64,000 bases of DNA from a bacterium (GTDB lineage: Bacteria > Actinomycetota > Thermoleophilia > Solirubrobacterales > Solirubrobacteraceae), in assembly GCA_021323635.1 (NCBI GenBank), contig JAJPKQ010000028.1:1-64000 (forward strand), read 5' to 3'. The notes under the pieces were generated by a model. It was not told the origin of the DNA. It saw only the letters and a program-made list of their open reading frames with translations, and did not search any database. Of the stretch, positions 51,006 through 63,575 are shown one piece after another. Numbering within the stretch: position 1 is the stretch's first letter; each line of letters starts with the position of its first letter. A program made the translations under genes and the position numbers.

Positions 51006-51947
51006 GTGATCGACGACCAAGCCCAGATCCCAACGACGACGCGGCTGCGCCTGCGCGAGCACAGCTTCCGGCTCGAGGTCGGGAATCCGCTCCTGATGGG
51101 CATCGTCAACGTCGGCGATGACTCCGTCGCCGACCCGCTGCATCTGCAGGAGACCGATCAGGCGATCGCCTTTGCGCGCGCCCAGGCGGCCGCTGGCGCG
51201 CAGATCATCGACGTCGGCTTCCTCTCCGGGCGCACCGACACAGCGCCGGCGCCCGCTGAGCTTGAGCGCAAGCGCCTGCTCCCGGTAGTGGAGGCGCTCG
51301 CAGCAGAGGGGCTCTGCGTCTCAGTCGACACCTATCGCGCCTCCGTCGCAGGCGCCGCGCTTGCTGCCGGCGCTGCGCTGATCAACGACGTCAGCGGGCT
51401 TGCGGACGTGCAGATCGCGCGGCTCTGCGCGGAGGCGGGCGCCGGCCTGGTTGTGATGCATACCCGCGCGGCGCCCAAGCAGGAGCGCTTCCCTCACTAC
51501 CGCGATCCGCTGGCGGACGTGCTCGAGCTGCTCGGCGAGCGCACGGCGCTCGCCCGCAGCGAGGGGCTCTCAGCGGAGCAGATCCTGATCGATCCCGGCC
51601 TTGACTTCGCCAAGACGCCCGAGGAGTCGGTGCAGATCCTGCGCGAGCTCGGCACGCTCGCACAGATCGGAGCGCCGATCCTGCTTGCCGCCTCACGCAA
51701 GTACTTCATCGGGATGCTCACCGGATCGCCGCCGCTGGCGCGTCTGCCGGGGACGCTCGCCGCAGTCGCACATGGCGTCGCGCAGGGGGCCAGCGTGCTG
51801 CGGGTGCACGATGTGCGCGCCGTGGCCGACTTCCTGGCCGTGCGCCACGCGCTGCGCTCGACCGACGCGGCCCCCATGCGCGGCGACCCCGAGGATGCGA
51901 GCCTGAAGTGGATCGCACCCAAGGGACCGCACGCATCCGCCCCCTAG
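51006..51947 (+). CDS. Divergent dihydropteroate-synthase-like protein
   Basis: The 313-residue TIM barrel clearly belongs to the pterin-binding (DHPS) family: AQAAAGAQIIDVGF, VSVDTYRASVAGAALAAGAALINDVSGL, IDPGLDFAKTPEESVQILRE and LLAASRKYFIGM. The canonical substrate blocks are changed, however: GIVNVGDDSVADP replaces GILNVTPDSFSDGG, and the STRPG loop reads SGRTDTAP. It may be a FolP2-like paralogue without synthase activity, or an enzyme with another substrate. No other folate gene is near. It starts with GTG 51006 and its end overlaps ssb by 4 bases. Confidence 0.82.
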   Translation: MIDDQAQIPTTTRLRLREHSFRLEVGNPLLMGIVNVGDDSVADPLHLQETDQAIAFARAQAAAGAQIIDVGFLSGRTDTAPAPAELERKRLLPVVEALAAEGLCVSVDTYRASVAGAALAAGAALINDVSGLADVQIARLCAEAGAGLVVMHTRAAPKQERFPHYRDPLADVLELLGERTALARSEGLSAEQILIDPGLDFAKTPEESVQILRELGTLAQIGAPILLAASRKYFIGMLTGSPPLARLPGTLAAVAHGVAQGASVLRVHDVRAVADFLAVRHALRSTDAAPMRGDPEDASLKWIAPKGPHASAP

Positions 51948-52378
51948 GCGGGCACCTGCACGGCGCGCGACTCCGCCCCGCTCTTATCACCAGCCAGCGG
52001 ATCCTCGGGCGAGCGGCCGAGTGCGCCCTCCGCCTCCGCTCCACGGCCACGCAGGAACTGAACCTCGCTGGCGACGATGCCCACCGCCTGCCGGCGCTTG
52101 CCGTCGACGCCCTCCCACGAGCTCCACTCCAGGCGCCCGTCGACTGCCACCGGCGAGCCCTTCTGCAGGTAGCGGTGCGCTGACTCGCCAGGCGGGCCGA
52201 AGACGCTCACGTCAAAGTAGTTGGGCTTTGCCTCATAGTCGCCATCATCGGTTCGCCGTCGCGATGTGCACGCGACCCGCAGGTGGCAGACGCGTCTGCC
52301 CGAGGGCAGCTCGCGCAGCTCAGGATCGTGCGTGAGGTTGCCCACCAGGGTAACGCGGTTGATCGAGGTGTAGGGCAT
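51944..52378 (-). CDS. ssb: Single-stranded DNA-binding protein
   Basis: The 144-residue protein is an OB-fold SSB: INRVTLVGNLTHDPELRELP, RVACTSRRRTDDGDYEAKPN, FDVSVFGPPGES, LQKGSPVAVDGRLEWSSWEG and a basic VDGKRRQAVGIVAS. It binds ssDNA during replication or transfer. It lacks the acidic DDDIPF-type tail used to recruit repair partners, suggesting an accessory, element-borne SSB. GAGGAG precedes the ATG. It heads left from the TraG-like gene, 204 bases away. Confidence 0.92.
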   Translation of the reverse strand: MPYTSINRVTLVGNLTHDPELRELPSGRRVCHLRVACTSRRRTDDGDYEAKPNYFDVSVFGPPGESAHRYLQKGSPVAVDGRLEWSSWEGVDGKRRQAVGIVASEVQFLRGRGAEAEGALGRSPEDPLAGDKSGAESRAVQVPA

Positions 52379-52582: not shown

Positions 52583-54343
52583 CTACCTTGGCCTTATGGC
52601 GACGGGCTTCGGCTTGCAGCCGCGAGCCTGGACGTAGGCGATGCCCGTCTGAAGTGCCATAAGCTCGCGCGCAGCCACGTTCTCTACCACGCCCTCGCTG
52701 CGGGTCGCGCGTCCGCTCGGGCGCCATCCGCTGAGGCTGCCCTCAAGCTGCTCATGGAAGACGGGCTGCCGATGGTCCCCGAGCTCGCGTGCCGCACGGG
52801 CGGCGGAGTCAAACCCGGGCAGCCGGTGCACGATCAGGTTGGCGCGGTTGTCAAGGATCTGGCCCGCCACCCTGCGGGCGCTACCGAGCTCCAGGTCCGC
52901 GAGCGACTGCGTCCCGAGGAACACGCTCAGCCCCGCTGAGCGACCACGCGCGAACAGGCTCGCCAGCGCGCCCATCGCGGCGTCGCTGGCAAACGCCTGA
53001 ACGTCGTCGAAGAGCAGCATCGTCGGCGAGCACGCATGCGCTCTCTGCAGATGAGCGGCGACGCTGAGCAGATCGACGATGATCGCTGCGCCAAGCATCC
53101 GTGCAAGCTCAGGACGAGCATCAGCGTTGAGGTTGAAGTAGACGACCTCGCCACGCTCCGCTGCTGTAAGCAGGTCGATGCTCGGCCTGCCCTCGCCTGG
53201 CGCCAGCAGCGCTCCGACGTCAGACTCAGCAAGCGTCGCCAGACGGTGCTGAGTGCCAGCGAGCGCCTCGCGCTCGCGACCCTGCAGGCGTGGCAGCGTG
53301 CCGGCGAGCGCCGCCCAAGACCCGGGCGCTCGCGCCTCCATCTCGGGTGCCAGCGCCTCCAGCATCGCCGGGTCGGCGAAGCGCGCCAGGTCCGCTAGCG
53401 TCACCTCGCGCCCTGCGGCCTGCAGCGCGCGCACGGCAAAGCCCAGAAAGCGCTGGCCGATCCGCAGGTAGTAGGTGTCGCCGAAGCTCTCCGCCGCGAG
53501 CGCCTTGTCGACGATCTCGGTCTCTGATCCGCGGGCGAGCGGATTGTACGTCGTCTGCTGCCAGGGGCTCCACTGGCGCAACGTGCGCCCCTCGCGCAGG
53601 GCGGCGCGCGCGAGCGCATCGGCAAGGGCCGGATCGCCCTTGCCGTCGACCGCGATCACCCCGTGGCTGAGCGCGCCTGCGGAGAGCAGCGTGCGCAGTG
53701 TCACCGTCTTGCCGGCGCCGGTCGCGCCGATCACCACCGTGTGCGCGATCGGGATGCGCAGGCGCCGGCCGCTGCGCAGCTCGCGCCCGAGCTCAAGCTC
53801 GTGCGCCCCAGAGCCGAGGAGGCCTCCCCTCGGCGCCCTGCGCCCGCGCGCGATCTGCGCCGGCGCTAGCGCGGAGCCGGCGCTGCCGAGAGTGGCCTCG
53901 CCGATGGCAAGGATGCGCGCCAGCGCGCGGCCAAGGGCGCGCCGGCCGCAGTCACGCAGCCTCAGGCCGGCGGCGGGCGCAGCTGCCGCGACCCCTTCCC
54001 GATGCTCGCCGCGCGCGGGCAGACAGGTCACAAGCGCACCAAGGATCGCCCCCACGCTGCCGGTGCGCGCGAGCAGCGGCACGAGCGCGAGGGCGCCGGT
54101 GGGCGCCAGCGCAAGCGCAAGCAGGAGCGCCAGCGCCAGACGCCCGCGCGAGTGCCCGCCATCGAGCCACGCGCGTGCCGCGAGCCTCCCCACCAGCCAG
54201 CCGCCGAGCGCCTGGGCGGCCGCTCGGGCCAGCGCCGCAAGCAGGCGCAGCGGAGTGGAGAGCGCGCCTCCTGCGCCACCACCAGGCGCCACCAGCAGCG
54301 AGGCGGATGTGGCAATCAGCGCGTGCGAGAGGTACGTCAACAT
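52583..54343 (-). CDS. TraG/VirD4-like conjugation ATPase
   Basis: The 586-residue protein has two hydrophobic stretches in its first 110 residues and an FtsK/TraG-type ATPase domain: Walker A VVIGATGAGKT (206-213), VIAVDGKGDPALADALARAA, YFNLNADARPELARM, Walker B MLLFDDVQAFASDAAM, and LGTQSLADLELGS with an arginine-bearing tail. Such ATPases recruit and pump DNA in conjugation. It is shorter than the second ATPase in the block. The start ATG 54343 follows GAAAGGAGAAGATCG; a terminator-like hairpin ends 19 bases upstream. Confidence 0.82.
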   Translation of the reverse strand: MLTYLSHALIATSASLLVAPGGGAGGALSTPLRLLAALARAAAQALGGWLVGRLAARAWLDGGHSRGRLALALLLALALAPTGALALVPLLARTGSVGAILGALVTCLPARGEHREGVAAAAPAAGLRLRDCGRRALGRALARILAIGEATLGSAGSALAPAQIARGRRAPRGGLLGSGAHELELGRELRSGRRLRIPIAHTVVIGATGAGKTVTLRTLLSAGALSHGVIAVDGKGDPALADALARAALREGRTLRQWSPWQQTTYNPLARGSETEIVDKALAAESFGDTYYLRIGQRFLGFAVRALQAAGREVTLADLARFADPAMLEALAPEMEARAPGSWAALAGTLPRLQGREREALAGTQHRLATLAESDVGALLAPGEGRPSIDLLTAAERGEVVYFNLNADARPELARMLGAAIIVDLLSVAAHLQRAHACSPTMLLFDDVQAFASDAAMGALASLFARGRSAGLSVFLGTQSLADLELGSARRVAGQILDNRANLIVHRLPGFDSAARAARELGDHRQPVFHEQLEGSLSGWRPSGRATRSEGVVENVAARELMALQTGIAYVQARGCKPKPVAIRPR

Positions 54344-54533: not shown

Positions 54534-55319
54534 TCACTCGCCGCTGTAGCGGGCGTAGAGCTCGGGCAGCAGCGCCGCGAGGTTCGCGTACTCCGCCGCA
54601 CAGTGGCGCGCCATCGCCAGCGGCGCTTCTCGGGGGATCAGCGCTCGGCGCGCAAGTGGCGTTGCCAGCAGGCGGTTGATCGCGCCCGCCGGCCCCCGGC
54701 GCGTGTAGAGGCCAAGCGCGGAGCCGATCCAGAAGCGGCTGCGCAGCTCGACGCCCTCCGGGCGCTCAAGCGCGCAGTGGCAGATGCGCGTATGCCAGGC
54801 GCGCTTGCGGTCGTCGCCCACCAGGCCGCAGATGACCGTCGCCACCTCCGGACGCTCGAGCGCAGCTGCCGGGAAGCCGAACTCGAGCGGGTCGCAGAAG
54901 GCGATACGCAGATGCGCCCGGCCCAGCCCGATGTCCTCGACCGGGTGATGGATTGCGCCCCAATAGGGCTTGGCGCCAGGCGCCTCGGGCAGCTCGACGC
55001 TGATGTCGAAGTGCGCCCGCGGATACCAGATGCGATAGCGCAGCGGATGCAGCGCATGCCACTCAAACCACCAGTCGAGCATCCTGCCGCTCACGCCCGC
55101 CATCAGCGTCCGCACGGCGGTGTAGGCGCTGCCGTCGGCGAGCAGACACCAACCCGTCTGCGCCGCCTCATCGCCGCTCTCGATCACGCCCTCCGGTCGA
55201 TCGGCGCTGAGCGCCTGGCGGGGGTCGATCGGCCCTGACTCGATCGCGCCGGCCACCTCCGGCGCGACCGCTGCAAGCGGCCTGCTCAACAGCGCCTGAA
55301 GCTCGCTGTCGCTGCCCAT
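54534..55319 (-). CDS. DAPG-hydrolase (PhlG)-like protein
   Basis: The 261-residue protein resembles the DAPG hydrolase/phloretin hydrolase family, zinc enzymes that split a C-C bond next to a phloroglucinol ring. Seen are GRMLDWWFEWHALHPLRYRI, an Asp-His region WYPRAHF, HHPVEDIGLGRAHLRIAFCD (Glu128), CGLVGDDRKRAWHTRI and the HxxxE pair in ARHCAAEYANL (His239, Glu243). The first zinc His is uncertain among His88, His91 and His103. It would be a metabolic cargo gene in the element. The real substrate is unknown. Confidence 0.7.
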   Translation of the reverse strand: MGSDSELQALLSRPLAAVAPEVAGAIESGPIDPRQALSADRPEGVIESGDEAAQTGWCLLADGSAYTAVRTLMAGVSGRMLDWWFEWHALHPLRYRIWYPRAHFDISVELPEAPGAKPYWGAIHHPVEDIGLGRAHLRIAFCDPLEFGFPAAALERPEVATVICGLVGDDRKRAWHTRICHCALERPEGVELRSRFWIGSALGLYTRRGPAGAINRLLATPLARRALIPREAPLAMARHCAAEYANLAALLPELYARYSGE

Positions 55320-55355: not shown

Positions 55356-56306
55356 CTAGTGCGTCTCTACCTCGCGCGGGTCCACCCCCAGGCCGCAGCG
55401 CGCGATCAGCGCGAGCAGGTCGCTGTGGATCCACGGCGAGCGCCTGCCCCCCGCCCGTTCGGGCGCAAGCCCGATCCGTCGCGCAAGCCAGCTCGTCTCG
55501 CCGCCGGGCGCGCCGCCCAGCTCGCGCTTGACGTGCCCGCAGCGCAGCGCGATCTCGCCGAGCGTCAGCTCACCGCGCGCCACCGCACCAAGCACCGCCT
55601 CGCGCAGCGCGCGGTTGAGAACATAGGGCGAGCGCTCGATGCTTGCAAGCTCGCGCTGCAGGTAGCGCGCCGCCGGTTCACCCGCCCCCGCCGCTAACGC
55701 GACCGCGCTGCGCGTGTGCGCAAGCGCCGGCTCGTAGCTCTCCAGCGCCCCGAGCACCGCTCGCAGCGCGAGCGCCCGCGCCGGCGCGAAGCGGCCGCAC
55801 TCGCTCCTTGCCTGATGCGCCCAGCGCAGCTTCTGGCCACCGCGCGACTGAAAGAGCGCGATGCGATAGCGGTTGCCGGCGCAGTCGCTCAGCCCGCGTG
55901 CGATCGCGCTCGCGGGCACCTGCGCCTGGGAGCCCTGGGATACCTCGGCTGGCAGCACACGCAGATCCTTCGCGCGCATCCGCCGACAGCGGCCGCGGCT
56001 GGCATCGGCCAGATAGATCGCGCAGAGGATCTGCGCGTTCTCGGCCGGCTCGTCGGGGGCCAGGTGCGCGACTACACGCGGGTCTCCGTGGCTGAGCGCG
56101 TCGCGGTCGAGCACCAGACGTGAGCCCTGGAAGCCGGCGCGCACGAGCAGCTCGCGCAGCGCTCCGTCGGCGCGCAGGTAGCGCGCAAGCGTGCGCGGCC
56201 GCTCGCCTCGCTCGCGGGCGCCCTCAGCCTCATCGTGCGCAGTCCCTCTGCAGCTCAGCGGATGCTCGCCGAGTGCGCCCTCCAAAAGCTCCTGTGCCTG
56301 GCTCAT
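55356..56306 (-). CDS. Conserved-looking protein of unknown function
   Basis: I do not recognise a named family in this 316-residue protein. It is Arg/Ala-rich and mostly helical. A region near 95-150 (AKDLRVLPAEVSQGSQ) and a C-terminal block (about 240-316: LTLGEIALRCGHVKRELGGA, ETSWLARRIGL and a WIHSDLLALIARCGLGVDP end) look like compact domains. The latter resembles a helix-turn-helix used in control of element replication, but this is inference. It overlaps the next upstream gene by 77 bases; GGAGGAG precedes its ATG by 10 bases, so both are real frames. Confidence 0.6.
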   Translation of the reverse strand: MSQAQELLEGALGEHPLSCRGTAHDEAEGARERGERPRTLARYLRADGALRELLVRAGFQGSRLVLDRDALSHGDPRVVAHLAPDEPAENAQILCAIYLADASRGRCRRMRAKDLRVLPAEVSQGSQAQVPASAIARGLSDCAGNRYRIALFQSRGGQKLRWAHQARSECGRFAPARALALRAVLGALESYEPALAHTRSAVALAAGAGEPAARYLQRELASIERSPYVLNRALREAVLGAVARGELTLGEIALRCGHVKRELGGAPGGETSWLARRIGLAPERAGGRRSPWIHSDLLALIARCGLGVDPREVETH

Positions 56307-58002: not shown

Positions 58003-58590
58003 TTAATGCGCGGGCGGGCAGCCGCCCGCCCGCGCGCCTCTTGCAATAGACAGCCCTGAGCGCTCGCCCGCTGTGCGGCGCGCACAGGCGGCGGGCGTGC
58101 GCTTGATCCTGAGCATCTCTACCGTCATTGCGCCTGGCGCTTCGTGCAGACGCGAGCGCAGCCGGGCGAGGTCCGCTTCGGCGCTGGCGCGCGATCCACG
58201 GTAGGTGAGCAGCAGGATCGGCCTGCCGTCGCGGAAGGCGCCGAGGAGCGAGAGGCCGATCGTGGCGTCGCTGTAGGGCAGCAGCTGCAGCAGCGGCTCG
58301 CTGAGGAGCAGGTCGCGCGCCCGGGCGGCTGCGCCTGAGCTGGTGCGAAAGGGGTTGATGTTCACGCGGCCGCGCATTGCCCGGCCGGGCGCGCGCCCAC
58401 CGATGTGCCGCTCGGGCAGAGGCATCCCGGGCGGGGGTCGCTCTTGCGCGGGCGCGCTGGAAGCGAGCCGCCCGGCCGGCAGGGGCGGGCGCTCGCCGCC
58501 GCGCTGCGGGGCCCCGATCAAGAGCGCAGCGATCAGGCCGGCCAGGAACGCCACGCCCTGCAGCACTCTCATCGCCGGCTTCCAGGTCAT
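58003..58590 (-). CDS. Membrane-anchored protein of unknown function in the conjugation-like block
   Basis: The 195-residue protein starts with a membrane helix (VLQGVAFLAGLIAALLIG), a Pro-rich linker, and a small alpha/beta domain (about 75-165: LLLSEPLLQLLPYSDATIGL, ILLLTYRGSRASAEADLARL). It is not recognised. Its ATG overlaps the stop of the CHAP gene (ATGA), so it is translated with it and probably works with the wall hydrolase in the transfer apparatus. The last codons form part of a strong hairpin. Confidence 0.6.
   Translation of the reverse strand: MTWKPAMRVLQGVAFLAGLIAALLIGAPQRGGERPPLPAGRLASSAPAQERPPPGMPLPERHIGGRAPGRAMRGRVNINPFRTSSGAAARARDLLLSEPLLQLLPYSDATIGLSLLGAFRDGRPILLLTYRGSRASAEADLARLRSRLHEAPGAMTVEMLRIKRTPAACARRTAGERSGLSIARGARAGGCPPAH
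58008..58035. terminator. Perfect 12-bp stem hairpin between convergent genes
   Basis: GCGCGGGCGGGC (58008-58019) and GCCCGCCCGCGC (58024-58035) pair perfectly around AGCC. It lies between the end of the small exported protein and the end of the minus-strand membrane protein, so it could stop transcription from both sides. There is no T-tract, as is common in high-GC genomes. Confidence 0.55.
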
Positions 58591-59750
58591 GGCCCCGGCG
58601 CTCCATAGCCGTAGATCGGGGCGGGCTCTGCACAGCCATCGGGCGGCGGCGCGCTTGCCGCAGCGGGCAGGCACGGCCCCGAGCGCCTCACCCCGCCCGC
58701 GTAGTTGCCGTTGATCAGGGTCATCTCGCCGTCAGAGGCAACCGCTTCGACGATCGCCACGTGCAGCGAGGTCTGCGGCGAGGAGGGCCCACTGCCGAAG
58801 AAGACCGTCCAGCCGGGTCGTGGATTGGCGCTGGCGGGCAGCGCGCGCGTGTGCGCCGCCGCCCATTCGTAGAGCGCGCCGGAGAAGGCAAGCGACGGCA
58901 CACGAACGCCTGCCTGGGACCAGACCCAGGAGGCAAACAGCGAGCACCAGGGCTCGCAGGGGCCATAGGGGTTGCATTCGGATCCGGGCGGTGATTCGCG
59001 CACGGCAAGCTGGCTGCGCGCGATGCGCACGATTCGCGCAGCAAGCGATGAGCCGGCGCGATCGGGAGCCGCACAGGCCGAGAGCAGCCGCGCCTGGCTC
59101 TGCCCGGCGCTCGCACCCGGCGCGGAGCCTGCGGCTTCCACTTCGAGCGCCTCCCCACGCGGCGCTTCGACACGCACCAACCCCGACCAGTCGGGCGGCA
59201 GATGCAGCGCTTCGCGCGTGGAGCGCCAGAGGTCGATCGCGCGCGGATGCCCGTCGATCGGCGGCCCGCCGGCGCCGATGTCACGCTTTTCGCCGACGAC
59301 CGAGCGCCCGTTGGGCGCGCGGATGACAAGGCGCGTGAAGGGCGCAAGCGGACCACCTACGCCGAGTGCCAGGCCAAGGCGATCGGCGTCCGCGCGATCG
59401 CTGTCGTATGCCGATTTCAGCCCGAGCTCCGCAAATGAGAGGTGACCGGCAAGCCCGGCGCCGTATGCGCCTGGCCCTTCCCCTTCATATACGGTCGCCG
59501 CAACCACGGCGCCCTGGCCGCTTGGCAGCGCAAGCGCGCCTTGGCCGCCGCAAGCGCTGGCGCCGGCAAGCGCCGATCCCAGCAGCGCCGCCAGCAGAGC
59601 GAGCGCGAGCGCCGAGATAATCGCCCAGGTGGCAAGCGCAGCAACCAATATCGCGCCCACTGGCAAGCCGCGGCAGCTGGCGGCGCCAGCCGCACGCAGG
59701 CGCGACTCGCGCAAGCGAGCGAGGGGCTCTCTGTCGGCGCTGGCTGCCAC
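58587..59750 (-). CDS. Cell-wall hydrolase with DPBB and CHAP domains
   Basis: The 387-residue protein has a membrane helix (31-62), a double-psi beta-barrel-like domain (about 80-175: ATVYEGEGPGAYGAGLAGHL, RDIGAGGPPIDGHPRAIDLW) and a C-terminal CHAP amidase domain with Cys269 (GPCEPWCSLFASWVW), His330 (SLHVAIVEAV) and Asn349 (GNYAGGV). It would open peptidoglycan for the transfer channel, as VirB1-like hydrolases do in Gram-positive T4SS. It starts with GTG 59750. The membrane protein downstream is coupled by an ATGA overlap. Confidence 0.85.
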   Translation of the reverse strand: MAASADREPLARLRESRLRAAGAASCRGLPVGAILVAALATWAIISALALALLAALLGSALAGASACGGQGALALPSGQGAVVAATVYEGEGPGAYGAGLAGHLSFAELGLKSAYDSDRADADRLGLALGVGGPLAPFTRLVIRAPNGRSVVGEKRDIGAGGPPIDGHPRAIDLWRSTREALHLPPDWSGLVRVEAPRGEALEVEAAGSAPGASAGQSQARLLSACAAPDRAGSSLAARIVRIARSQLAVRESPPGSECNPYGPCEPWCSLFASWVWSQAGVRVPSLAFSGALYEWAAAHTRALPASANPRPGWTVFFGSGPSSPQTSLHVAIVEAVASDGEMTLINGNYAGGVRRSGPCLPAAASAPPPDGCAEPAPIYGYGAPGP

Positions 59751-59873: not shown

Positions 59874-62800
59874 TCACGCAGCGCCCGGAAGCGGACGGAC
59901 CTCCGCGACAGGCTGGCTGCCTGGGCATCGACCTTGCGCTTGGGCGCGCACAGCGGGTGGCAGCGCGGGCACCCCAAAGCCGGCGAGGGCTCCTTCGTGA
60001 AGATCGCGCTCGGCACAGAAGAGGATTCGCGAGCGCGCCGGGTAGGGCCACTCGGAGGGATGCTCGCCGGGATAGGCCTGCGCGGCGCAGAGGATCTCAT
60101 CGGCACGGCGTGCGCAATCGCGCGCACGCTCGCGATCGCGACAGACGAAGAGCACGAAGGGCACAACCCCTCCGCGCTCGCCGTAGCGGAGGGTGAGCAG
60201 CGACCAGCCGGCGAGGAAGTGCTCGTAGCGCTCGAGCTTCGCAAGCGCCCCCGCGCCCGCGCGACCTGCCACCGGCAGGCGGTCATCGCGCTCGATCAGC
60301 ACATCGCAGCGGCTTGGCAGCTCGATCACGCCATCCGGCCGGATCGTCTCAAAGCGCTCTGCGACCGCTCGCCGGCCGTCGGGCGCGGTGCGCAGCAGGT
60401 CGTGCGGCACCCGCCCCTGCGGCAGGCGCAGGTCGCGCAGGGCGAAGACCCTGCCCTCTGCCTCCCCGCCCCTGGCGGCACGGGGGGTGATCGCCGCTTC
60501 GCTCCTGCCACGCAGCGTAAGCGGGCCGAGCGCAAGCGCCCGCTCGTAGGCGAGCAGTGAGCTGCTGACGTGCAGCTCGTGGCGGATCGACGCCGCACCA
60601 CGGGCGCTCTCGCCGATCTGCTCATAGCTTGGCGCGCTGAGCGCGAGCGCCCCGGGCCAGCGCTCCGCGAGCAGGGCGAGCGCGCGCGGGGTCACCGCAT
60701 AGCAGAGCGGCACGCCGGCGCCGTCGCGGCGGTGAAACTGCAGCCGCGCCAGCAGCCCCGCGTCTGCCAAGCGCTTCAGGCGCCGCTGGGTTGTCGTCAG
60801 CGATCGTCCGGCGCCAAAGCGACGGTGCAGCTCGCTGCCGAGCACGTGGCGCAGGCGCGCGATCAGCTCGAGCAGCGCAAGATCGACAGCGTCCGGCCGA
60901 TGGGGCGTCGCTGCTGCCGATTGCGCAAGGACGCGCATGCGCACCGCCCGATCGAGATCGGCGAGCTCGGCGAAGCTCGCCGGCGGCGTGCCTGAGCGCG
61001 GCGGCAGCGTGCGCTCACTGTGCGCCCCGCCGTTGTCGCCCGCCGGAGATGAAGCGGCGGCACGCTCGCCCTGCTCCCAGGGCGCCTGGCGAAGGTCCGC
61101 CAGATAGCTTCCGCCGCGCTGCGCCTGGCGAGCGCTGTGGAGGGCAAGCCGCCGGCGATCGATGCGCACCGGATTGGTCTGCGCGATGAAGGGGGCAAGC
61201 CGTCCTGCGGGTGATGTGAAGGAGATGATCGCGTGGTGGCGGGGCAGATGCAGGCGCAGGTCGGGGCGCGCAAGGGACTGAAGCTCCGCGGTGCTTGGCC
61301 TGATCGAGTCCGAGTACTCGGCCATCAGCAGCGAGGACGCCGCGCGCGCCTCGGCGCTGGAGGCGGTTGCGAAGTAGGCGCGGCTCGCAAACAGCGCATC
61401 GAGCTGGTCGCGTACGCTGCGCTCGGTCCACTGCGAGTCGGCCTGCCAGCAGGCGACGGTCTCCAGCCCCGCCGAGCGCTTGAGCGCGATCGTCTCGGCG
61501 AAGCCGCGGTTGATCACCAGCGGCGCCTCGTCGATCTTCAGAGCAACAGCGACGCGCTCATCGGCGGCGATGTGGTCCTGCTGGCGCGCGAGCGCCGCAT
61601 CGAGCATCCCGATCAGCATCTGCATCAGCACGGAGGTGTTGCCGGCGCCCATCGCGCCGAGGGCGCCCTTGACGATCAGCACCTCGCAGCCTCCGATCAC
61701 CTGCTCGAGGTCGATCTTCAGGCTCTCGTTCAGCAGCACCCGCTTGATCGAGGGTGAGTTGAGCAGCCGCGCGAGCTTGTTGACGGGGGCATCAAGCTTC
61801 GCGGTGGTTGGAGCGCGGGCGTCGCGCAGCTGGGCGACCAGCTCGCTTGCGAAGAACTGGGCGATCTCCTTGAAGGCGGGCAGCGTCCGCACCTGCGCGC
61901 CCACGCGCTCGCGGTAGGCGTAGCCCTCCTCCCCGACTGAGAGCAGACGCGCGGCATCCCAGAGGCTGGCGTGCTCGTCGGCCGCCAGCACGGCGATTAT
62001 CGCGTTGCGCAGATAGCGATCCGACGAGGCCCTGATGTCGGCATCTGTAAACAAATTGCGGAGCGCGCCCACGACAAAGTCGGCGACGACATCTGCGGGC
62101 GCGCGCGCCGCAAGCGGGTTGAAGCCGCAGGTGGGGTGCGCGAAGTCAAGCAGCGTGCAGGTGCGGTCCTCGGGCACAAGCGAGACGGCGGCATCGGCGG
62201 CATCGCCCTTGGGGTCAAAGAGGATCACGCAGCAGCGCTCGCGGGCGAGGTCCTCGGCGACGCTTGCGACCAGCAGGCTCGTCTTGCCCTGCTCGACGGT
62301 GCCGGTGACGGCGAGGTTCTGGCGGCGGCTCTGCGGGTGGATCGATACTGGCCCGAGCGCGTCGTGCAGCAGGCCTTCCCCGGATTGGGGCCGGAAGGCG
62401 CCTGGAGGGGCGGGCGCAAGCGGCAGCGACGAGCGCTGAAAGGGCGTGCTGGTGTAGGTCGGCGCCGGCATGTGCCAGAGGGCGGGAAGCTCGCTTGCGG
62501 CAAAGACGCCGGTGTGGATGCCCGGCAGCGGGTTGCCCTCCCCCCGCGCCAGCCGGCCGCGGTAGGCGGAGCGGCGCGGCAGCGCGCGCGTGCCAAGCCG
62601 TTCGACCAGATGGCCCTCGCTGTGCTGGGCGCAGAGGTAGGAGGCCACGCGGCGGGCGTCGGACGCACTTGCGGCAAGCACTCTGACATCGCAGTAGAAG
62701 AGCGCGCTGCCAACGACGCCAAGCGATCCTTCAAGCAGCTTGCGGTCAAGCAGCGAGGGCGTCCCCCCTCTGGGTGCGCCGCGCCTATCTCGCTGCGCGC

Positions 62801-63575
62801 GGCGCTCGCTTGAGCGAAAGAGGTGGGCGGCGTAGACGGAGAGCAGGCGCGGCGTGGGCGTCAGCGCGAGCTGAACCAGCGCCTGACCGCTGCAGGAGGA
62901 GAGCACGCGCAGGAGCCCGTCGATCGGCGGCTCGCGCTCGAGGCGCTCGCGACTGATCCAGAGCGCGCGCTCGATGAAGCTCTCACGCTTGCGCAGGCGC
63001 ACGAGCGCGGCGTCCGTGCCGATCTGGATCGAGGTCGGGAGCAGCACGATGTTGGGATAGGCCTCCCGCAGCGCAACCGCGACCGTCTCCTGGTGCTCGC
63101 GCGGGCAGCACACGCCAAGCCAGGTGCCGGCGTGCGCGCCGGCACCGGCGCCGTGGAGCTCGAGCGCCAGCGAGGGCTGGCCGTGGCGCAGACGGCGCAG
63201 ACGGCGATGCAGCAGCAGCGCGTGCAGCGTCTCGAACATCGCCACCAGCTGCTCCACCCCGGCCTGGTCTGTGCGGTAGGGCAGCACGCGCATGCGCACG
63301 TACTCGCGCCGGCGGCGGGTGCGCATGCGCGCCAGCGCGAGCACAAGCCCCGCGAAAAGCAGTGGCCCAAGCAGCCAGGCCGACGCTTCAAGCGCCCCGC
63401 GCAGGAGCGCGAGGGCCGCTGAGGCAGCTGCCAGCAGGACGCTGCCGACGCCGCCGAGCGCCCTGCCGGCAAGCAGCTCGTGCAGGCCGCCGTGCAGCAG
63501 CCAGCCGGCGATGAGGAAGCAAGTGATCAGAGAGGCGAGCTGAAGCGCCCGCCAGATGAGAAGGCGCGAGAGCAA
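59874..63575 (-). CDS. VirD4-like coupling ATPase fused to a replication-relaxation-type domain
   Basis: The 1233-residue protein has two to three N-terminal membrane helices (12-32, 44-82), a long middle region, and an ATPase with Walker A GTVEQGKT (425-432), ILFDPKGDAADAAVS and Walker B-like VALKIDEAPLVINRG, as in VirD4/TraG proteins. After a linker at about 800-880 comes a second winged-helix unit (LLELIARLRHVLGSELHRRF ... ALLAERW) and a domain with RPDGVIELPSRCDVLIERDD and LERYEHFLAGW, typical of plasmid replication-relaxation proteins. The fusion links DNA recognition to DNA pumping. TTG 63575 follows GGGGAGG closely. Confidence 0.8.
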   Translation of the reverse strand: MLSRLLIWRALQLASLITCFLIAGWLLHGGLHELLAGRALGGVGSVLLAAASAALALLRGALEASAWLLGPLLFAGLVLALARMRTRRRREYVRMRVLPYRTDQAGVEQLVAMFETLHALLLHRRLRRLRHGQPSLALELHGAGAGAHAGTWLGVCCPREHQETVAVALREAYPNIVLLPTSIQIGTDAALVRLRKRESFIERALWISRERLEREPPIDGLLRVLSSCSGQALVQLALTPTPRLLSVYAAHLFRSSERRAQRDRRGAPRGGTPSLLDRKLLEGSLGVVGSALFYCDVRVLAASASDARRVASYLCAQHSEGHLVERLGTRALPRRSAYRGRLARGEGNPLPGIHTGVFAASELPALWHMPAPTYTSTPFQRSSLPLAPAPPGAFRPQSGEGLLHDALGPVSIHPQSRRQNLAVTGTVEQGKTSLLVASVAEDLARERCCVILFDPKGDAADAAVSLVPEDRTCTLLDFAHPTCGFNPLAARAPADVVADFVVGALRNLFTDADIRASSDRYLRNAIIAVLAADEHASLWDAARLLSVGEEGYAYRERVGAQVRTLPAFKEIAQFFASELVAQLRDARAPTTAKLDAPVNKLARLLNSPSIKRVLLNESLKIDLEQVIGGCEVLIVKGALGAMGAGNTSVLMQMLIGMLDAALARQQDHIAADERVAVALKIDEAPLVINRGFAETIALKRSAGLETVACWQADSQWTERSVRDQLDALFASRAYFATASSAEARAASSLLMAEYSDSIRPSTAELQSLARPDLRLHLPRHHAIISFTSPAGRLAPFIAQTNPVRIDRRRLALHSARQAQRGGSYLADLRQAPWEQGERAAASSPAGDNGGAHSERTLPPRSGTPPASFAELADLDRAVRMRVLAQSAAATPHRPDAVDLALLELIARLRHVLGSELHRRFGAGRSLTTTQRRLKRLADAGLLARLQFHRRDGAGVPLCYAVTPRALALLAERWPGALALSAPSYEQIGESARGAASIRHELHVSSSLLAYERALALGPLTLRGRSEAAITPRAARGGEAEGRVFALRDLRLPQGRVPHDLLRTAPDGRRAVAERFETIRPDGVIELPSRCDVLIERDDRLPVAGRAGAGALAKLERYEHFLAGWSLLTLRYGERGGVVPFVLFVCRDRERARDCARRADEILCAAQAYPGEHPSEWPYPARSRILFCAERDLHEGALAGFGVPALPPAVRAQAQGRCPGSQPVAEVRPLPGAA

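Follow-up and report, generated by a model that had tools for sequence, protein, structure and literature searches.

The window, i.e., the whole stretch of 64,000 nucleotides that was analysed, corresponds to bases 1-64000 of contig C32 (64,483 bases) in a source genome of 2.64 Mb that is 97.5% complete. One gene on its minus strand (63575..59874) joins a coupling-type ATPase and a relaxase-family domain in a single frame of 1233 codons, giving a protein of 1233 aa (Table 1). The gene starts with a TTG at 63575 and stops at 59876-59874, and the frame stays open for 14 codons upstream of the TTG. A purine-rich stretch precedes the start and could be a ribosome-binding site. Upstream of the gene, the contig continues for about 0.9 kb.

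Table 1. The fusion gene, its parts and its neighbours, in window coordinates (all on the minus strand).
Feature	Position	Strand	Basis or remark
Fusion gene, 1233 aa	59874..63575	-	Order: hydrophobic N-terminus, N-terminal domain, VirD4/TrwB-type motor, linker, winged helix, Replic_Relax nuclease-like domain
aa 1-84, about 3 hydrophobic (membrane) segments	63324..63575	-	Hydropathy
aa 85-402, N-terminal domain	62370..63323	-	Without family match
aa 403-830, VirD4/TrwB-type ATPase	61086..62369	-	Motif and profile evidence
Walker A GTVEQGKT, aa 425-432	62303-62280	-	
Walker B KIDEA, aa 680-684	61538-61524	-	
aa 891-978, MarR-like winged helix	60642..60905	-	Predicted model and profile matches to wHTH regulators
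aa 1060-1200, PD-(D/E)XK-like half of Replic_Relax	59976..60398	-	PF13814 and motif spacing
D1081	60335-60333	-	Motif residue of fused Replic_Relax
E1095	60293-60291	-	Motif residue of fused Replic_Relax
K1113	60239-60237	-	Motif residue of fused Replic_Relax
CHAP-domain protein, 387 aa	58587..59750	-	PF05257, E 1.8e-11; directly downstream of the fusion
MobC/TraX-like protein, 340 aa	56230..57252	-	Winged helix and RPD..E-V-E-L-S-x-K (D188, E205, E207, K211)
Conserved 316-aa protein	55356..56306	-	No family assigned; divergence tracks HrcA
DAPG-hydrolase-family enzyme	54534..55319	-	PF18089, E 1.9e-62
Second coupling ATPase, TraD/TrwB-like, 586 aa	52583..54343	-	PF10412 above cut-off, PF12696 just below; TIGR03743
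Single-strand binding protein gene	51944..52378	-	PF00436; border to MaoC, hrcA, dnaJ

An earlier note, made from the letters of the window, had described this frame as uninterrupted, with membrane helices, a VirD4-like motor and a C-terminal winged helix tied to a replication-relaxation domain. The frame was recovered at exactly the coordinates of Table 1, and its strand, which the note had not given, is the minus one. The hydropathy profile has about three hydrophobic segments within aa 5-84, in agreement with the helices, and on hydropathy alone the protein has the N-terminal membrane anchor of VirD4/TrwB coupling proteins. The domain that follows the anchor is encoded by a gene of its own in three relatives (L046, L049 and L050). 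Profile searches placed both halves, the motor with TrwB/TraD and the C-terminal part in PF13814. The note had also named an assembly error as a way in which the fusion might prove spurious. We rejected such an artefact because many genomes carry this fusion as an unbroken reading frame: the complete protein is encoded in a single frame in at least 14 loci, including those of two single-contig chromosomes (G090 and G111).

Searched alone against Pfam profiles, the motor matched no family, and its match to the NCBIfam model SXT_TraD (E 1.6e-8) lies far under the cut-off of that model. A profile of 19 relatives matched a single protein among the PDB sequences, TrwB (1e9r/1gl6, E 2.7e-8). When profiles were compared with each other, the neighbouring TraD-like family (E 3.6e-15) fitted the motor better than VirB4 did (E 1.7e-8), and we thus rejected an identity as VirB4. 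The motor is RecA-like, with Walker A and B akin to those of TrwB/TraD; both motifs and the DPKGD at aa 454-458 are invariant in the chromosomal clade defined below. Profiles and motifs together place this half among the VirD4/TrwB-family type IV coupling ATPases, as the earlier note had it. The likeness to R388 TrwB/VirD4 is one of profile, the N-terminal domain of the fusion being larger. TrwB is not known to have a relaxase-family domain.

The C-terminal half matches PF13814 (Replic_Relax) over aa 902-1121 with 38.3 bits, against a curated cut-off of 25.3, and the same family is matched by 19 of the 20 aligned relatives. Its predicted model contains a MarR-like winged helix (VIA-align Z up to 8.7 against MarR/MepR), and searches with the model in Foldseek and VIA-align returned mainly winged-helix proteins. 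On sequence grounds, this half thus belongs to Replic_Relax, the family of MOBC relaxases, and has the two domains proposed for it. Foldseek and VIA-align gave no PD-(D/E)XK structural match for the nuclease half, which is of low confidence in the model, so that the absent match is uninformative either way. The PD-(D/E)XK-like core is a putative one, assigned from PF13814 and the spacing of the motif.

This motif consists of D1081, E1095 and D1097, with no lysine before K1113 (E-x-D...K). Standalone Replic_Relax proteins of actinobacteria have this same arrangement, with the PD, the E and the K kept in 15 of 15 cases. TraX-type proteins keep D152, E170, E172 and K176 (pAM373 numbering), residues that we take, in part after the review cited below, to have the roles implied by the MOBC catalytic pattern D...E-x-E-x3-K. 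Because the fused domain departs from this TraX-type pattern, we refer to it as a relaxase-family domain and do not file it as a MOBC relaxase. By profile, the fused domain is connected to TraX mostly through the winged helix. The replication-relaxation family protein of the enterococcal plasmid pAM373 (MOBC according to PLSDB) exceeds the PF13814 cut-off. The family therefore also covers the enterococcal TraX-type MOBC relaxases, and the gene is better described as a coupling-protein/relaxase-family fusion, which is more specific than the DNA-recognition module of the earlier note. Of that description, a DNA-handling module tethered to the pump can fairly be retained; since PF13814 holds MOBC/TraX relaxases, the partner of the motor is relaxase-like and more than a generic reader of DNA. 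MOBC relaxases have been placed in the PD-(D/E)XK superfamily, a winged helix is present in TraX, and no covalent relaxase-DNA intermediate has been observed for this class (PMC12857230, a 2025 review).

Relatives of the fusion were found in 20 of the 121 genomes of the order, and about 30 of the 146 genomes of the family have a Replic_Relax domain inside frames of roughly 980-1830 aa. Across the phylum, surveyed by an even sample of 198 genomes (fusions outside Solirubrobacterales being possible), PF13814 is present in 34 genomes, in frames of 129-725 aa except for that of the window (1247). At 7 of the 20 standalone Replic_Relax loci of other Actinobacteriota, the immediately preceding gene on the same strand encodes a homologue of the motor (E 2.5e-8 to 4.8e-56). 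The two genes abut or lie within about 140 bases of each other in the clear cases, the arrangement being looser in L102, which has a partial match. Among the relatives of the fusion itself, one (L044) has motor and Replic_Relax as two genes. The survey of domain co-occurrence proposed in the earlier note thus gives a fusion common to about 30 Solirubrobacterales genomes and modules that are adjacent yet separate elsewhere in the phylum. Since the two adjoin as separate genes in this way, the fusion is most simply read as the joining of a pre-existing and conserved two-gene unit. We found no description of a coupling-protein/MOBC-family fusion among the open-access papers that were searched. 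Both parts are of known kinds; what appears to be new is their fusion and its domesticated setting.

The fusion is carried by 21 of the 24 genomes of its genus. At most of the loci examined, the fusion comes first, followed by the conserved 316-aa gene, (an OmpR-like regulator), the TraD-like ATPase, the MobC-like gene, SSB, MaoC, hrcA and dnaJ. It differs in the window, where the MobC-like gene lies on the opposite side of the TraD-like gene, and four genomes of the genus (L079, L082-L084) have the fusion in other surroundings, which, like the nearby end of the contig, speaks against the explanation favoured below. Distances between fusion proteins track those between the HrcA proteins (rho 0.82, Mantel p 0.002, n=10), with identities to the window of 0.53 for the fusion and 0.57 for HrcA. 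A branch supported at 100/100 sets the chromosomal group apart as a monophyletic clade. An origin from a plasmid or a virus was rejected, as 72,556 plasmids yielded no match of nearly full length and no relative was found in viral contigs. The frequency and the divergence of the gene indicate that, in its genus, the fusion is a vertically inherited chromosomal gene. Because it is fixed and inherited in the chromosome, it suggests a built-in DNA-transfer machine and not a passing mobile element.

The neighbouring genes differ in their histories. The TraD-like and MobC-like genes diverge together (rho 0.86), with correlations to HrcA of 0.39 and 0.16, respectively. Because they track each other and not HrcA, they behave as a second pair of a coupling protein and a relaxase-like protein, and this pair is kept beside the fusion in most genomes. 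All nine members of the 340-aa MobC-like family keep the motif RPD...E-V-E-L-x-x-K, in which the E-E-K spacing is that of TraX. The nine also match NF041423, at best with 6e-5 and far below its 200-bit cut-off, and a direct hhalign comparison of the family with TraX is weak, though motif and spacing agree. The DAPG-hydrolase gene, which was not found at the same place in relatives, is probably a passenger. No relative of the CHAP-domain gene lies at the same place in other genomes; its product is possibly a wall hydrolase.

Candidate channel genes lie elsewhere in the genome. A second locus, on contig C33 of the source genome (G000), encodes VirB4 (AAA_10), TcpC, a TcpE-like protein (its assignment being below cut-off) and a multi-hydrophobic protein of 888 aa; VirB4, TcpC and TcpE-like thus share the genome of the fusion at a different locus. 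Loci of this type are common to the relatives, in G060 with an SLT transglycosylase, and in more distant relatives the fusion and genes for VirB4, TrbL-like and SLT/NlpC proteins form a single cluster. Relaxases of family PF03432 were absent from the 12 genomes searched, and TrwC relaxases from G081, G103, G130 and G135, which speaks for the explanation that we favour below. The source genome itself encodes a MOBF (TrwC) relaxase at G000:C44, which is possibly the real relaxase and counts against that explanation.

The fused nicking motif is conserved unevenly. In the chromosomal clade, D1081 is replaced in 8 of the 18 proteins (by C, Q, A, H, G or T), and of the 8 changes of this Asp needed on the whole tree about 7 fall inside the clade. 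The cluster-type proteins encoded beside VirB4 keep the Asp in eight of nine cases, the other having an Asn. Nearly all fused proteins keep E1095 and K1113, and the window copy itself retains the three residues. The pattern of substitutions indicates that the nicking centre is decaying in the chromosomal clade, where the fused domain can probably do without nicking. Because of this decay, the domain would act in the clade mainly as a tether or recognition module.

The reading that we favour, with moderate confidence and from sequence evidence, is that of a conjugation-type ATPase for DNA export that has been domesticated and to which a relaxase-family domain is tethered for DNA docking. The protein would sit in the membrane as a hexamer, at the base of a type IV secretion channel of the Tcp (monoderm) type, where its motor would pump DNA while the winged helix and the Replic_Relax core hold the substrate at the pump entrance. 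Docking would then require no relaxase with a lasting covalent bond to the DNA. Since a covalent pilot is not observed with MOBC-like chemistry, the link would come from the protein tether. In relatives with VirB4 beside the fusion, nicking is probably a further task of the fused domain, whereas in the chromosomal clade any nicking would be left to a separate protein, for which the MobC-like one is the best candidate. The cargo would be chromosomal or resident-plasmid DNA and not a particular element. More tentatively, it is possible that this lineage of Actinobacteriota has a conjugation-type DNA-export machine of its own as a core chromosomal trait, whose coupling ATPase bears a relaxase-family domain as a permanent tether in place of a covalent pilot relaxase. 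Two proposals of the earlier note do not sit well with these results. The fusion replacing a separate relaxosome-coupling step is doubtful here, with an intact-motif MobC-like protein nearby and a decaying fused motif, and the targeting of "the element's own DNA" is not supported, as this is a near-universal, vertically tracking chromosomal gene at a conserved locus, with no element visible around it and with channel genes on another contig.

Other readings account for parts of the data. The fused domain could be a working MOBC-type relaxase, one polypeptide nicking the origin and pumping the strand with the loss of the Asp tolerated or compensated, and the complete D/E/K set of the window copy, the near-universal E1095 and K1113, the intact standalone relatives and the Asp kept in the contiguous VirB4 clusters all fit this. 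We nevertheless regard it as unlikely, given the varied replacements of the Asp in nearly half of the same clade and a separate MobC-like protein nearby with the complete TraX spacing. The same decay is in line with a machine that exports protein or has another role (e.g., in contact-dependent antagonism), with the relaxase-like domain as a regulatory DNA-binding remnant, but the winged helix and the E and K positions are still conserved and the MobC-like/TraD-like pair is kept alongside in most genomes, which makes this quite unlikely. An assignment to a conjugative element (an ICE or a plasmid) at an insertion hotspot is improbable. In other genomes, the family does have genes for VirB4, TrbL-like and SLT proteins as neighbours, and the DAPG-hydrolase and CHAP genes specific to the window resemble passengers; yet such an element should show sporadic presence, an integration module and movement, whereas the gene is near-universal in the genus, has a mostly conserved place and neighbours, diverges like HrcA and had neither a near full-length match in the plasmids nor a relative in the viral contigs searched.

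The proposed domesticated export ATPase has partial parallels in known systems. Enterococcal plasmids of the pAD1/pAM373 type encode a T4CP and TraX (MOBC) in close proximity, and PF13814 covers both their relaxase and the fused domain. The gene for the TraM-recognition T4CP precedes that for the replication-relaxation protein by at most a few genes, and in pAM373 the two are three genes apart. There they are two separate proteins, and TraX has its D152, E170, E172 and K176, whereas the fused domain has E-x-D...K and is losing its Asp. MobB (T4CP) and MobC (MOBC relaxase) of CloDF13, which we liken to the fusion by description, also pair a coupling protein with a dedicated MOBC relaxase, as separate proteins of a mobilizable plasmid; MobB also assists DNA relaxation (PMC7431656). 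Patescibacteria have a chromosomal Tcp-type T4SS, a monoderm conjugation machinery that is likewise fixed across a lineage; it is mostly without relaxase genes, and the portion of that study drawn on here reports no T4CP/relaxase-family fusion (PMC12102498). The way in which DNA gets to the channel when the relaxase is of the MOBC class is listed as an open question (PMC12857230). A fusion of a coupling protein and a relaxase-family domain would be one physical answer to it, and one that offers a single gene to test. The genus-wide fixation of the fusion, together with the channel genes of the second locus, suggests that resident DNA transfer is a host trait in Solirubrobacterales.

Kept at the locus of the coupling ATPase–Replic_Relax fusion is a 316-aa protein whose divergence parallels that of HrcA (rho 0.84) and which is a predicted core partner there. 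The TraD-like ATPase of the window carries LFDD at the Walker B position. The DE form of this motif (IDEF) is found in nearly every relative, and the window copy may be impaired.

Features at the fusion locus, in relatives and elsewhere in the window genome
Feature	Position	Strand	Remark
TraD-like ATPase	window 52583-54343	-	
DAPG-hydrolase-family gene	window 54534-55319	-	PF18089, E 1.9e-62
316-aa protein	window 55356-56306	-	without match to known family
CHAP-domain protein	window 58587-59750	-	directly 3' of fusion
TetR/MarR-like double regulator	L035 600-1634; L002 8956-9945		upstream of fusion
Tandem MobC-like homologues	L090 3-5461 (G081:C100)		near fusion locus
TrwC-type (MOBF) relaxase	L097 8446-11283 (G000:C44)		

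The DAPG-hydrolase-family gene lies within the cluster in the window genome only, and no counterpart of the CHAP-domain protein was found at the same place in the relatives' loci. The window genome also encodes a TrwC-type relaxase on a separate contig, apparently with no VirB4 nearby.

In one relative (G081), the MobC-like homologues near the locus are large, diverged and arranged in tandem, which suggests duplication and decay. The protein upstream of the fusion in relatives is an unusual double regulator: its N-terminus is of TetR type, its C-terminus MarR-like.
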